Below, in pieces: positions 18,548-22,772 of a DNA stretch of 64,000 nt. This DNA is from Candidatus Roizmanbacteria bacterium (GTDB lineage Bacteria; Patescibacteriota; Microgenomatia; UBA1406; GWC2-37-13). Where the stretch lies: contig JAAZNM010000004.1 in the NCBI GenBank assembly GCA_012798265.1, positions 1-64,000 of the forward strand. Reading direction: 5' to 3'. Under the pieces are notes generated by a model that saw nothing but the letters and a program-made list of their open reading frames with translations, made no database searches and had not been told where the DNA came from. The translations under genes were made by a program, and so were the position numbers. How positions within the stretch are numbered: position 1 is the stretch's first letter; each line of letters opens with the position of its first letter.

Positions 18548-19462
18548 ATGCAAAATAATCTCTGTCTCACGTATCCTAAATTCATTACGATGGAACTGAA
18601 TAGACTAAAGGGAGGCAGATTGGTCAATATCGACAAGAATTTTTTCGAAAAAATCGATCTAAACGAAGTCGTCTCTGTTTCTTTTTTTGGCGACAAGGTT
18701 TTCGACCATCCTCATCTTGATTTTTTTTTACATAAACTTCAATCCAAAAAAATCATCAGTTCGGTAGATATTTTAGCTAAAAGAGACGATTTTTTCAGGT
18801 TGAAGGAAAAGACAAGGTTATTTTCCCAAATAAGGCTCCATGTCTTTAGTGCCGACAAAAAATTGCACGATAGATTAATCGGCGAAAAAAACAACTTTGC
18901 GGATTTTGAGAAATACGTAGTCAATAATAAAGATAAGGATTTCATAAAAAAATCAAAAGTCATTTTGATGCCGATAGGCGAATCAAACGATAGCGAAAAA
19001 GAAATCGACAATTTATATAAACTGGCCAAAAAGAATGGTTTTTTCTTTTCGCCTTTTATTTCTTCTAAATTTGACCGCATCGGTAAACTAAGTAAAAAAA
19101 AATACAAAAGAATAACCCAGATCCTAGCCGATCTTTACCGAAAAGACCGGCAGAGGATAATGTTTTTGGACGAACCGCTTATCTGTCTATTCACTCACGA
19201 AGCCAACCTTTGTCCGGCAGGGAGATTATTAATCCATATCGATGTCGAAGGCGATTATTATCCTTGCCGATACTCGACATACCAGGTCGGTAGGGCCGGC
19301 CTCAGTTTAACATCTGTCTGGAAAAGCTTTTCAAAAAAAAGAGAAGTTTGCGAAGAATGCAAAGACTGCCAAAAAGCATCTATCTGCGGATATGGCTGTA
19401 TTGCAACAAAAGAAAAATATTTGTATAATAAAGACAGTTTTTGCTTTTATAGCAATTCTTAA
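18548..19462 (+). CDS. SPASM-domain protein lacking the radical SAM cysteines
   Basis: A 304-residue protein whose C-terminal third is a SPASM domain: CPAGR, a GDYYPCRYS strand about 15 residues later, an SVW helix, then CEECKDC, SICGYGC and a last Cys near the end. This domain normally holds two auxiliary iron-sulphur clusters in peptide-modifying radical SAM enzymes. The N-terminal two thirds look like a worn SAM barrel but have no Cx3Cx2C, so SAM cleavage is unlikely. It opens the operon, and its TAA overlaps the ATG of the next gene (TAATG). I infer a non-catalytic partner or electron relay for the two intact radical SAM enzymes. Start at 18548 chosen from promoter spacing; 18527 is possible. 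Confidence 0.7.
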   Translation: MQNNLCLTYPKFITMELNRLKGGRLVNIDKNFFEKIDLNEVVSVSFFGDKVFDHPHLDFFLHKLQSKKIISSVDILAKRDDFFRLKEKTRLFSQIRLHVFSADKKLHDRLIGEKNNFADFEKYVVNNKDKDFIKKSKVILMPIGESNDSEKEIDNLYKLAKKNGFFFSPFISSKFDRIGKLSKKKYKRITQILADLYRKDRQRIMFLDEPLICLFTHEANLCPAGRLLIHIDVEGDYYPCRYSTYQVGRAGLSLTSVWKSFSKKREVCEECKDCQKASICGYGCIATKEKYLYNKDSFCFYSNS

Positions 19463-20484
19463 TGAGCAAAAAAGTTTTAGATTCCAACCCAATTTTTTCC
19501 ACGATCTTTGTCACTAACGCATGCAATCTCAGATGCCGCCATTGTATCTTTTCTTCAGGAACCAAATCTCCAAAGGAACTTTCGGACGACGAAATATTTA
19601 GTTTGATCACAAAACTTGCCAACTTAGGAGTAATCTGCTTGGATTTTAGCGGAGGCGAAACGTTAATCCATCCGTCGATTTTCAGATTCATTAATTTCGC
19701 GTTTGATGCCGGTATTAAGTTTGTCAGTATGGCCACCAACGCTACTTTGATTAACCAGAAGACAGTTGATGAAATTCTAAAACTGAAAAAACAGGGAAGG
19801 CAGCTTAACTTAAGGATAAGTCTTGACGGCGATGAAGAATCTTACGATTGGTTAAGGGGTAAGGGTGTATTTAAAAAAGCCATAGGCGGTTTGGACATGC
19901 TTAAAAAAAACAATATCAGGCCAAGAGAGATAAATTTGGTTTTGCATAAAAAAAATATCGGAAAGATAGAAGCGGTTATCGATATAATCAAACCCTACAA
20001 ACCTTATACGCTGATTATTATGCCGTTGGTTTTGGACGGTCGGGCCAAACAACTTATGGGAGATTACCAGATAACCAGTCTTATGTGGAAAAAAATTCTT
20101 TTAGAAAAACCGCTCTTGCAAAAAAAACACCCCGAACTGGAAATTACTATCGACGGACCGGTAGGGTCGATCCTTGAGAAAAACCTTGATCTTAATGTCC
20201 CAAGGCCTTGTATGTGCGGTTTACAGTACATTGGTATCTCACCCGAGGGTGAAATACTAGTTTGCCCCATATCTCTTTTATCGGTAGGAAACGTCAGGAG
20301 TAATAAAGACATTCAAAAAATTTGGAGGGAATCGCCGGTCTTGAAAAAAATAAGGGATCATAATGCTTTAAAAGGCAAGTGCCGCCACTGCCGATTCAAA
20401 ATCGTATGCCGCGGAGGATGCCGGGGGTTGGCGGAATCAATTTATGGGGATATCCTTAAACCCGATCCCCTTTGCTGGTTATGA
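19462..20484 (+). CDS. Radical SAM/SPASM peptide maturase 1
   Basis: A 340-residue radical SAM enzyme with the classical cluster motif C21-x3-C25-x2-C28 (in NACNLRCRHC), a GGETLIHP motif for SAM binding and a complete C-terminal SPASM domain (CMCGLQY, VCP, GKCRHC, VCRGGC and a final Cys before the stop). Proteins of this architecture install thioether, C-C or other crosslinks in ribosomal peptides. The start overlaps the previous stop (TAATG) and its own stop overlaps the PqqD-like gene (ATGA), so expression is tightly coupled. The adjacent recognition protein and 34-residue peptide support a RiPP role; the actual bond formed cannot be read from sequence. Confidence 0.85.
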   Translation: MSKKVLDSNPIFSTIFVTNACNLRCRHCIFSSGTKSPKELSDDEIFSLITKLANLGVICLDFSGGETLIHPSIFRFINFAFDAGIKFVSMATNATLINQKTVDEILKLKKQGRQLNLRISLDGDEESYDWLRGKGVFKKAIGGLDMLKKNNIRPREINLVLHKKNIGKIEAVIDIIKPYKPYTLIIMPLVLDGRAKQLMGDYQITSLMWKKILLEKPLLQKKHPELEITIDGPVGSILEKNLDLNVPRPCMCGLQYIGISPEGEILVCPISLLSVGNVRSNKDIQKIWRESPVLKKIRDHNALKGKCRHCRFKIVCRGGCRGLAESIYGDILKPDPLCWL

Positions 20485-20777
20485 AAAATATATTAAAGTC
20501 GAGGCCGATCAGGAGAAGTAAAATAGCCGGGAGAAGCCTTCTTGAAAGAATGGAAAAAGACGACAGCATCCTTTTGACCAATACCGTCAGTCACAAAATG
20601 TTTCTGTTGAACAGTTTTTCCGCCGAGATATGGATGTTATGCGACGGGAATATCACTACCGAGGAAATAATCAAAAAGATCTCCAAAAAATATGATCTAA
20701 AAAAAGAAACGGTCGAGGCAAAGATATGCTTTTTTTTGGATAATTTCCTGAAAAACGATTTAATCGATTTAATATGA
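20481..20777 (+). CDS. PqqD-like RiPP recognition element
   Basis: A 98-residue stand-alone PqqD-like domain. It has the three-strand, three-helix pattern of RiPP recognition elements: a strand pair DDSILLTNTVSHKMFLLN, a helix beginning SFSAEIWMLCDG, then TTEEIIKKISKKYDL and a final helix with FLDNFL. These domains bind the leader of a precursor peptide and deliver it to the modifying enzyme. The start at 20481 overlaps the stop of radical SAM enzyme 1 and its stop overlaps the start of enzyme 2, both as ATGA. This position between two SPASM enzymes is strong contextual support. Confidence 0.85.
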   Translation: MKNILKSRPIRRSKIAGRSLLERMEKDDSILLTNTVSHKMFLLNSFSAEIWMLCDGNITTEEIIKKISKKYDLKKETVEAKICFFLDNFLKNDLIDLI

Positions 20778-21772
20778 ACAAAAAAGGACGTTACGGACTT
20801 CATTTGGCCAATATCGAATTGACAGACTGCTGTAACCTGAGGTGCAAACACTGTTACGGAAATTTTCCGAACAAATCGATTATGTCGGAAAAAGAAGTCG
20901 ATCTTTGCATCGATGAACTTGATAGGGCCGGTTGTTGGTCGGTAACGCTTACCGGTGGGGAGCCGTTGATACTGGGGAAGAAGTTTTTTTCTTACGCCGA
21001 TAAATTCAGAAAAGTATTCGAAAGAGTGATAGTTACCACAAACGGAACGTTGGTTGACAAATACGATCCAGGTTTGTTCACTATGTTTGATTTGGTTCAA
21101 ATCAGCGTTGACGGTCCAGAAAAAATACATAATAATATTCGCGGCAATAACGTCTTTGAGAAAACGGTTGAAAATTTACTATCCCTGAAAAGGAATGGGG
21201 TCAAAGTAGCCGTGATGATGACTTTGAATAAGATCAATCATAGTTATTTTTTAGAGACATTTAATTTTTTCAAGGATTTGGGTGTCATAATGTATTATGA
21301 ACGTTATACGCCTGCCCATAATAAGGATTTAGAACTGACGCCTCGTCAATATAAAAAAGTTTTGGAAACGGCCAAAAGAAACAAAATAAGTTCCTCGGAT
21401 CCTATACTTAGATCTTATTGTTTTGATAACCTTTCATCTGTAAAAACCAAGAATAGGATAGTCGGTGGTTGCAGCGCCGGAATATCGGGAATTGCGATTT
21501 CCTCAAACCTTGACGTATTTCCTTGCGTCAGGATGAGAATAGTCCTGGGGAATCTAAAAAAAAACCATTTGTTGAAGATATGGTCCAATAATGATATCCT
21601 TAATCAATTAAGAGATACGGCTTTGCTTAAAGGAAGATGCGGTTCGTGTATTTTTGTTGAAAGCTGTCGCGGTTGTCGGGCTGATGCCTATCTGGAAGGC
21701 GATCTTCTTAAAGAAGATAAGCTATGCCCAATTAATAAACCAAAAAGGAAGGGGGTGAGGAAATATGACTAA
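20774..21772 (+). CDS. Radical SAM/SPASM peptide maturase 2
   Basis: A 332-residue radical SAM enzyme with C20-x3-C24-x2-C27 (in CCNLRCKHC), LTGGEPL for SAM binding, and a SPASM domain made of GGCSAG, FPCVRMR, GRCGSC, ESCRGC and a terminal LCP. It is clearly a paralogue of, but not a duplicate of, enzyme 1, so each may make a different bond or act in sequence on one substrate. The gene overlaps the PqqD-like gene at its start, and its last codons overlap the first 8 nt of the small peptide gene. A GGGGGTGAGG ribosome-binding site within its 3' end drives that peptide. Confidence 0.85.
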   Translation: MNKKGRYGLHLANIELTDCCNLRCKHCYGNFPNKSIMSEKEVDLCIDELDRAGCWSVTLTGGEPLILGKKFFSYADKFRKVFERVIVTTNGTLVDKYDPGLFTMFDLVQISVDGPEKIHNNIRGNNVFEKTVENLLSLKRNGVKVAVMMTLNKINHSYFLETFNFFKDLGVIMYYERYTPAHNKDLELTPRQYKKVLETAKRNKISSSDPILRSYCFDNLSSVKTKNRIVGGCSAGISGIAISSNLDVFPCVRMRIVLGNLKKNHLLKIWSNNDILNQLRDTALLKGRCGSCIFVESCRGCRADAYLEGDLLKEDKLCPINKPKRKGVRKYD

Positions 21773-21869
21773 AAAAAAGGCAAATAAAGTATCAAAAAAA
21801 GCCTGGAAATTAAACGTCAAAGAATTCCGATATGCGGCTTGTATGATGAATGCGGGAGCGGCTGATTAA
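21765..21869 (+). CDS. Candidate RiPP precursor peptide, 34 residues
   Basis: A short gene beginning inside the end of radical SAM enzyme 2, with a strong purine-rich ribosome-binding site (about 21751-21760). The N-terminal half is very basic (seven Lys in the first 15 residues), as expected of a leader. The rest contains Trp14, Phe21, Tyr23, one Cys (26) and the ending MMNAGAAD. Thus the likely core is FRYAACMM plus the Asn-Ala-Gly tail, with Trp, Phe, Tyr and Cys as possible crosslink sites. No double-Gly cleavage site is evident. Position after a PqqD-like protein and two SPASM enzymes makes it the obvious substrate. I do not recognise it as a member of a named precursor family. Confidence 0.72.
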   Translation: MTKKKANKVSKKAWKLNVKEFRYAACMMNAGAAD

Positions 21870-21890
21870 GAGATTTTTGATTTTAGATAT

Positions 21891-22772
21891 ATGAGGTGCG
21901 ATCTTTGCGGCATAGACCGAAGTATTTTTAGTACTAAATTTATAAAAAGACAAAAAAAGATATATTGTTCTGCGTGTATTCGTTTTTTGGGACGAAAACG
22001 GCCTTCCCGTAAGGAATATAAAAAGGAGATCGAGCAAATTTTGAAGACATCCGATAAAAGTTCTGCTTATGGGGCGATAGTGCTTCTTTCCGGAGGTAAA
22101 GACAGTGTTGCCGCTTTGTATGTAGCGGTGAAGTATTACAAACTGAAAGTGCTTGCCGTTACCGTAGATAACGGTTTTTTGAGCAACGAAGCTAAAAAAA
22201 ACATCGAAAAAGTTACCGCTTTCTTAAAAGTAGATCACAAACTCATCTTAGACAAAAGTTGGTTCGATTCTATCAAAAACTCTATAAAAAATAACGACCT
22301 ACCTTGTTTGAAGATATGCGCCGGTCATAAGTTAAACAACATAATGAAGCTTCACAAACGGTTTCCGGACATTAAGTGTTTTATAACCGGAGACGAACTG
22401 CCCTTTGTTTTTGACGATAATTATTCTTCAGTAAAAAAGGCGAATGGGTTTTTTTTGTTGAGAGTTCTGTGCGGTTGGATAAAAAAAGAAAAGGACGTTT
22501 ACGGAATTATTTCGGACTTACCTTGGGAGAAACATCCTTTTTACGGTTATACGAGCGATTGTTTGGCAGTTGGTTATGCACTCGAGAAGTACAAAAAAAT
22601 CCACGGTCTTAATCCTGAAGAGATCTATCTTTCAGATAGGGTCAGGCACGGACTAATCAACAAAAGACAGTTTATGTCGTTTCTCAACAAAAGGAATAAA
22701 AACCTGCCACGACACTCAGCCTTGGTGAAAAACATCCTTCTTCAAAAAAAAGATATAGACTATCAAAGATAG
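21891..22772 (+). CDS. PP-loop ATPase with N-terminal zinc ribbon
   Basis: A 293-residue N-type ATP pyrophosphatase. The nucleotide-binding PP-loop is SGGKDS (about residue 68). The N terminus carries a zinc ribbon (CDLCG and CSAC), and a further CLKIC pair lies near residue 140, reminiscent of tRNA-thiolation enzymes (TtcA/Ncs6) and of N-type pyrophosphatases that adenylate carbonyl groups. It begins 21 nt after the small peptide gene on the same strand, so it probably belongs to the same operon. An adenylating or sulphur-transfer step on the peptide is plausible, but it could be a tRNA-modifying enzyme. Its end overlaps the convergent MFS gene by 57 nt. Confidence 0.75.
   Translation: MRCDLCGIDRSIFSTKFIKRQKKIYCSACIRFLGRKRPSRKEYKKEIEQILKTSDKSSAYGAIVLLSGGKDSVAALYVAVKYYKLKVLAVTVDNGFLSNEAKKNIEKVTAFLKVDHKLILDKSWFDSIKNSIKNNDLPCLKICAGHKLNNIMKLHKRFPDIKCFITGDELPFVFDDNYSSVKKANGFFLLRVLCGWIKKEKDVYGIISDLPWEKHPFYGYTSDCLAVGYALEKYKKIHGLNPEEIYLSDRVRHGLINKRQFMSFLNKRNKNLPRHSALVKNILLQKKDIDYQR

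Follow-up and report, generated by a model that had tools for sequence, protein, structure and literature searches.

A putative ribosomal peptide operon with two radical SAM/SPASM enzymes and a predicted [4Fe-4S] PP-loop sulfurtransferase in a patescibacterial genome

The window analysed here is a 64,000-nucleotide stretch of DNA from a Candidatus Roizmanbacteria bacterium (assembly GCA_012798265.1, contig JAAZNM010000004.1, positions 1 to 64,000), whose genome (954 kb in 8 contigs, 99% complete) is of the Patescibacteria/Candidate Phyla Radiation (CPR) type. Six open reading frames (ORFs) on its + strand, at positions 18548-22772, form an operon that, with high confidence, belongs to a system for a ribosomally synthesized and post-translationally modified peptide (RiPP), and the peptide looks like a kind not described before. 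On balance, we favour reading the operon as a biosynthetic cassette in which radical S-adenosylmethionine (SAM)/SPASM enzymes would crosslink a 34-residue precursor and a [4Fe-4S] PP-loop enzyme, analogous to CtaC, would insert sulfur. The product is possibly a YcaO-independent thioamide. Our confidence falls somewhat short of even for the more specific proposal of a new RiPP class of Patescibacteria, in which a PP-loop (AANH) sulfurtransferase would install a thioamide or thioacid without YcaO-TfuA, alongside two crosslinking radical SAM/SPASM enzymes.

Operon organization and precursor peptide

The operon encodes, in order, a SPASM-only protein, a first radical SAM/SPASM enzyme (rSAM1), a PqqD-like protein, a second radical SAM/SPASM enzyme (rSAM2), the 34-residue peptide and a PP-loop ATPase. 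Successive junctions are TAATG, ATGA, ATGA and an 8-nt overlap, followed by 21 nt between the peptide and PP-loop genes. The ORF coordinates and the Pfam and NCBIfam domains agree with the order, frames and overlaps given in a preliminary description of this DNA. The GC content of the operon (37.9%) is within the normal range of the window, and no promoter or terminator signal in the operon DNA exceeded those of shuffled sequences.

The peptide gene (21765..21869, +; MTKKKANKVSKKAWKLNVKEFRYAACMMNAGAAD) is preceded by a strong Shine-Dalgarno sequence at 21746..21760 (+; AAGGAAGGGGGTGAGGAAAT-ATG). Its predicted duplex with the anti-Shine-Dalgarno sequence, at -12.1 kcal/mol, is by far the best in the operon and falls in the top 0.24% of the 1682 ATGs of the window, which bears out the strong ribosome-binding site first proposed; by the same calculation, there is essentially no such site in front of rSAM1, rSAM2 or the PP-loop gene. 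A precursor made in excess of its translationally coupled enzymes would be expected to show such a pattern. The peptide has no family match in the Pfam and NCBIfam libraries. A second match to it in its own genome (G000:C3:44843) was discarded as a chance hit, being weak and located inside a 279-residue protein.

A second locus with a related peptide

A second locus came from a search of 373 genomes of the class with rSAM1. It lies in the Patescibacteria isolate KR13_S3.mb.84 (G709; record JAHIPV010000012.1), where contig 8 carries two adjacent radical SAM/SPASM genes. The gene order is different: a 53-residue ORF, whose product ends in NPTWRMVAEDAFRAGCLINAD, lies between a divergent PP-loop gene for a protein of 322 residues and the radical SAM/SPASM pair. 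The two peptides match without gaps (KKANKVSKKAWKLNVKEFRYAACMMNA versus KKPSGSHNPTWRMVAEDAFRAGCLINA): K-K, W, A, C and N-A fall into register. Both conform to the pattern W-x9-A-x-C-x2-N-A...D-COOH, Asp being the last residue in each. The match score was attained in 3 of 5000 shuffles, and the peptide ORF ranks first among the 78 short ORFs at the G709 locus. The probable core of the window peptide spans W14-D34 (21804..21866, +), as suggested by the gapless alignment up to A30 and the shared terminal Asp; the leader/core boundary is placed by inference. Of the residues initially singled out (Trp14, Phe21, Tyr23 and Cys26), only Trp14 and Cys26 have a gapless counterpart in the G709 peptide.

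The enzymes of the two loci are also related. The PP-loop proteins align across most of their length (3e-13), and the rSAM2 proteins are reciprocal best matches among 34 radical SAM proteins (130 bits) and group together in a tree (ultrafast bootstrap support 74). As these components pair between the loci, the peptide, rSAM2 and the PP-loop enzyme constitute a shared unit, with a second radical SAM enzyme in both, and the PqqD-like and SPASM-only proteins are specific to the window at the locus level. As in RiPP gene clusters, a short precursor gene lies beside the maturase genes and is conserved with them. The preliminary description had named the loss of the short frame beside the same enzymes in a related genome as a ground for abandoning the 34-mer as substrate; a corresponding frame is present in G709, flanked by a homologous PP-loop gene and the radical SAM/SPASM pair, and the retention of the peptide core beside homologous enzymes supports the 34-mer as the probable substrate of the operon. 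Since a distant genome has the same core beside related enzymes, the system looks like a real modified ribosomal peptide system.

In G709, a GNAT acetyltransferase gene, possibly encoding a tailoring enzyme, lies immediately downstream of rSAM2 near the end of the contig (L045:9110-9733). Elsewhere in that genome, contig 22 encodes a PqqD-radical SAM/SPASM fusion, with a GNAT acetyltransferase gene before the fusion gene (L078:5405-7169).

The PP-loop enzyme as a predicted [4Fe-4S] sulfurtransferase

The last gene of the operon (21891..22772, +) encodes a protein of 293 residues with an N-terminal Cys4 ribbon (C3/C6/C26/C29), a PP-loop motif (SGGKDS at residue 67) and three further cysteines, C139, C143 and C224. 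The PP-loop ATPase domain recognized at the outset is thus present, and its assignment can be made more precise: the protein is likely a sulfurtransferase, with a [4Fe-4S] cluster predicted on C139/C143/C224. These three cysteines are invariant in five aligned PP-loop proteins or domains, namely those of the window and G709 and three linked to nonribosomal peptide synthetases (NRPS) or acyl carrier proteins. The invariance was read from the alignment of these five, which is cleaner than another multiple alignment in which the cysteine region of this NRPS-borne domain was out of place. The triad is missing from six sugar-type relatives, which keep the N-terminal Cys4 ribbon and the PP-loop; those whose context was read are located in sugar loci. 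Of the three carrier-linked relatives, found by a plasmid search, one lies within a Roseovarius NRPS, one is part of a Streptomyces NBC_01216 protein with a condensation domain, and one is encoded next to the acyl-carrier and ketosynthase genes of Streptomyces NBC_00470. In all three, a C-x2-C pair follows the PP-loop by about 70-90 residues, and an [ST]NC[LM] motif comes further on.

A profile of the five proteins gave as its best match in the PDB the [4Fe-4S] LarE of the archaeon M. maripaludis (3.4e-10), with CYNC aligned to the C-x2/3-C pair; WbuX (8wex, 5.4e-9) and NcsA (2.3e-5) scored lower. In an hhalign comparison with TtcA (2.9e-7), the first cysteine pair lines up with TTCSLC (C122/C125), which are [4Fe-4S] ligands. 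The cluster of NcsA is held by Cys142, Cys145 and Cys233 (PMC10067955), and CtaC, an Fe-S member of the PP-loop superfamily, thioamidates carrier-bound closthioamide (PMC6772006). CtaC, TtcA, TtuA, NcsA and M. maripaludis LarE resemble the window protein in having an SGGxDS PP-loop, a C-x2/3-C pair about 70-95 residues later and, some 80-125 residues beyond that pair, a third cysteine, and their known chemistry is an ATP-dependent exchange of oxygen for sulfur. Unlike them, the enzyme described here shares its operon with genes for a ribosomal peptide and for two radical SAM/SPASM enzymes and is not associated with carrier proteins, with tRNA or with the LarA cofactor; it also has a WbuX-type N-terminal Cys4 ribbon. 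In a Foldseek search, NcsA, LarE and TtuA were near the top (TM 0.24-0.34), a ranking that we take as a mere lead because the AlphaFold models are poor.

The triad-bearing, WbuX-like domains of the Roseovarius and Streptomyces plasmids (L033:5980-7050, L115:4932-7112 and L116:4704-5852), which carry the labels NRPS, 'condensation domain' or 'hypothetical', are themselves candidate thioamide synthetases.

Weighing the evidence

Several points weigh against a sulfur-inserting cassette. The case for it is built from sequence and from two loci in all. The best NCBIfam match of the PP-loop protein is WbuX (TIGR03573), at 58 bits over the N-terminal part only, against a cut-off of 203. Its third cysteine, C224, is placed by motif and register without a structural model, the AlphaFold models (predicted local distance difference test scores of 38 and 46) being unfit for cysteine geometry, and in both RiPP-linked proteins the first cysteine pair is spaced CxxxC, not CxxC. 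Between the loci, the two rSAM1 proteins do not find each other as mutual best hits among the 34 compared, and no PqqD or SPASM-only gene lies beside the G709 locus, the PqqD domains of that genome being elsewhere.

An enzyme of the amide or ligase type, in an otherwise similar RiPP cassette, is the foremost alternative, and we consider it unlikely. On the model of the WbuX/PseA sugar amidotransferases or of asparagine synthetase, the PP-loop enzyme would adenylate Asp34, or Asp/Glu side chains, and add ammonia or an amine, and its cysteines would bind zinc. The fold and the N-terminal Cys4 ribbon, common to the sugar-type relatives, fit this idea, as do the WbuX matches in NCBIfam and in the PDB profile search and the Asp that terminates both peptides. 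However, all members linked to natural products keep the three additional cysteines, which are missing from the sugar-type ones, the operon contains no glutaminase gene, and the top profile match is a [4Fe-4S] sulfurtransferase. We rejected an identity as a WbuX-type sugar amidotransferase proper, given the score far below the cut-off and the missing triad in sugar-type proteins: homology to WbuX/PseA is detectable and the ribbon and PP-loop are the same, but the triad is not shared.

It is slightly less probable again that the peptide is a scaffold for an excised, cofactor-like small molecule, as PqqA is for PQQ and MftA for mycofactocin, rather than a secreted peptide. The operon encodes neither a protease nor a transporter, PqqD and SPASM partners also serve PQQ and mycofactocin, the small conserved core is close to the C-terminus, and rSAM1 reaches 142 bits against the mycofactocin maturase model, though the cut-off of that model is 265. 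Against this, an occurrence in two genomes is unlike that of a cofactor, neither locus has downstream genes of a cofactor type, and no co-occurring dehydrogenases or cofactor users turned up, although none were sought. A neighbouring gene of the major facilitator superfamily (MFS) was considered as a further member of the system; it is found in 26 of 72 family genomes, with neither metG nor folC adjoining it elsewhere, and was therefore left out.

Membership of a catalogued system that likewise pairs SPASM proteins with PqqD, such as GeoRSP or SynChlorMet, is very improbable. The GeoRSP models (TIGR04302/04303/04304) reach 29 bits against a cut-off of 100, 134 and 110 (GeoRSP_rSAM, on the two enzymes) against 400, and 16 (GeoRSP_SPASM) against 300, and those of SynChlorMet (TIGR04248/04250/04251) 35 (ScmD) against 100, at most 104 against 400 and at most 94 against 400. 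With no curated NCBIfam RiPP system reaching its cut-off, the early impression that this combination of genes matches no recognized class holds. Finally, a tetrapyrrole substrate for the two radical SAM enzymes, in the manner of AhbD or NirJ, with the 34-mer as a spurious frame, is hardly credible: the AhbD model TIGR04545 is the top NCBIfam match of both (163 and 133 bits), but its cut-off is 500, a PqqD protein is present, and the peptide has its strong ribosome-binding site and is conserved at the second locus.

Radical SAM, SPASM-only and PqqD-like proteins

rSAM1 (19462..20484, +; 340 residues) carries the motif CNLRCRHC and matches the Radical_SAM (1e-21) and SPASM (5.6e-8) domains; rSAM2 (20774..21772, +; 332 residues) carries CNLRCKHC and matches them at 6.3e-20 and 9.7e-7. 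Between them lies the leader recognition element of the window, the PqqD-like protein of 98 residues (20481..20777, +), which has a PF05402 match above the cut-off (8.6e-12) and an ATGA overlap. The SPASM-only protein (18548..19462, +; 304 residues) is barely above the cut-off of 27 bits for TIGR04085 (28.1 bits) and under that for Pfam SPASM (0.0018). It had been called cysteine-less, which proved incorrect: it has ten cysteines, most in the SPASM region, and what it is missing is the N-terminal CxxxCxxC of radical SAM enzymes. It is probably a catalytically degenerate partner. Because hhalign against a radical SAM profile aligned the SPASM part alone (1.5e-5), an origin of its N-terminal half by decay of a radical SAM domain is conjectural.

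PqqD genes also occur in polysaccharide-like loci, at L019:6501-8697 in the genome of the window (C3:42500-44700), at L077:3636-5870 (G709 contig 14) and at L027:9453-10577. The first two neighbour an S24-peptidase/nucleotidyltransferase-like ORF and a sugar transferase, the third an HprK-like ORF and a glycosyltransferase.

Proposed pathway and relation to known systems

In the cassette with sulfur insertion, leader recognition, the type of crosslink, the binding of an Fe-S cluster and the insertion of sulfur are inferred, as are maturation and export, for which the operon has no protease or transporter gene. The Lys-rich N-terminus of the 34-mer, presumably made in excess, would serve as leader and be delivered by PqqD to the SPASM enzymes. 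One or both radical SAM/SPASM enzymes would modify the core W14...A24-x-C26-x2-N29-A30...D34, most likely by forming a bond between Cys26 and/or Trp14 and a carbon atom in a residue nearby, and the SPASM-only protein would be a degenerate structural partner. The PP-loop enzyme would adenylate a peptide carbonyl, either a backbone amide or the C-terminal carboxylate, and replace its oxygen by sulfur through the predicted cluster, as CtaC does for closthioamide and TtcA, TtuA, NcsA and LarE do for RNA or a cofactor.

An operon that combines a short precursor with PqqD and SPASM-type radical SAM enzymes is reminiscent of PqqA/PqqD/PqqE, mycofactocin, GeoRSP, SynChlorMet, sactipeptides and ranthipeptides. 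Unlike in those systems, the precursor here has no family match, the enzymes are far under the curated cut-offs, and a PP-loop enzyme is added. If the sulfur prediction holds, the product would resemble the thioamitides as a thioamidated ribosomal peptide; in contrast to their YcaO-TfuA route, sulfur would arrive via a PP-loop Fe-S enzyme, and Pfam detected neither YcaO nor TfuA among the six operon proteins. RiPP clusters for graspetides, some with SPASM enzymes, occur in CPR bacteria (PMC8939145); no ATP-grasp domain was detected among the same six proteins. Our literature search found no paper joining a RiPP with a PP-loop enzyme, which is weak evidence as most subscription journals were outside its scope.

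Distribution

The occurrence of the system is rare and patchy among the sampled genomes. PP-loop searches found no further system in the 83 genomes of the order, in the order of G709 or in a third class. With a single sequence and with a profile, none was found in 380 genomes of the phylum either, the profile returning the window's own protein and two WbuX-like ones. The PqqD family is present in 11 of these 380 genomes, none other with the system. A GTDB contig scan retrieved G709 again as its sole return; it used two weak patterns and so is not exhaustive. Among plasmids and phages, the PP-loop protein had remote relatives only, and viral contigs matching rSAM2 were set aside as unrelated radical SAM loci. 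Three IMG/VR phage contigs (L058:2680-7248, L061:4035-7323 and L064) each have radical SAM ORFs in adjacent groups of two or three. Those of L058 and L061 lie directly 3' of a repeat-containing ORF (HSD and Asp/Cys-rich repeats) that resembles a tail or adhesin protein; they are perhaps maturases of a structural protein.

Significance

To our knowledge, RiPP thioamidation depends on YcaO-TfuA, and action of a [4Fe-4S] PP-loop sulfurtransferase on peptides has so far been shown only for the nonribosomal closthioamide. If our prediction is true, the PP-loop Fe-S enzyme would be a second, independent route to RiPP thioamidation, directly testable with a small enzyme (293 residues) and a 34-residue substrate. 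The motif C-x2/3-C ... [ST][DN]C[LM] offers a simple discriminator between PP-loop enzymes linked to natural products and the similar sugar amidotransferases. Such action of the enzyme on a ribosomal peptide would also mean that costly peptide chemistry beyond graspetides is retained in CPR bacteria, whose genomes are close to 1 Mb.

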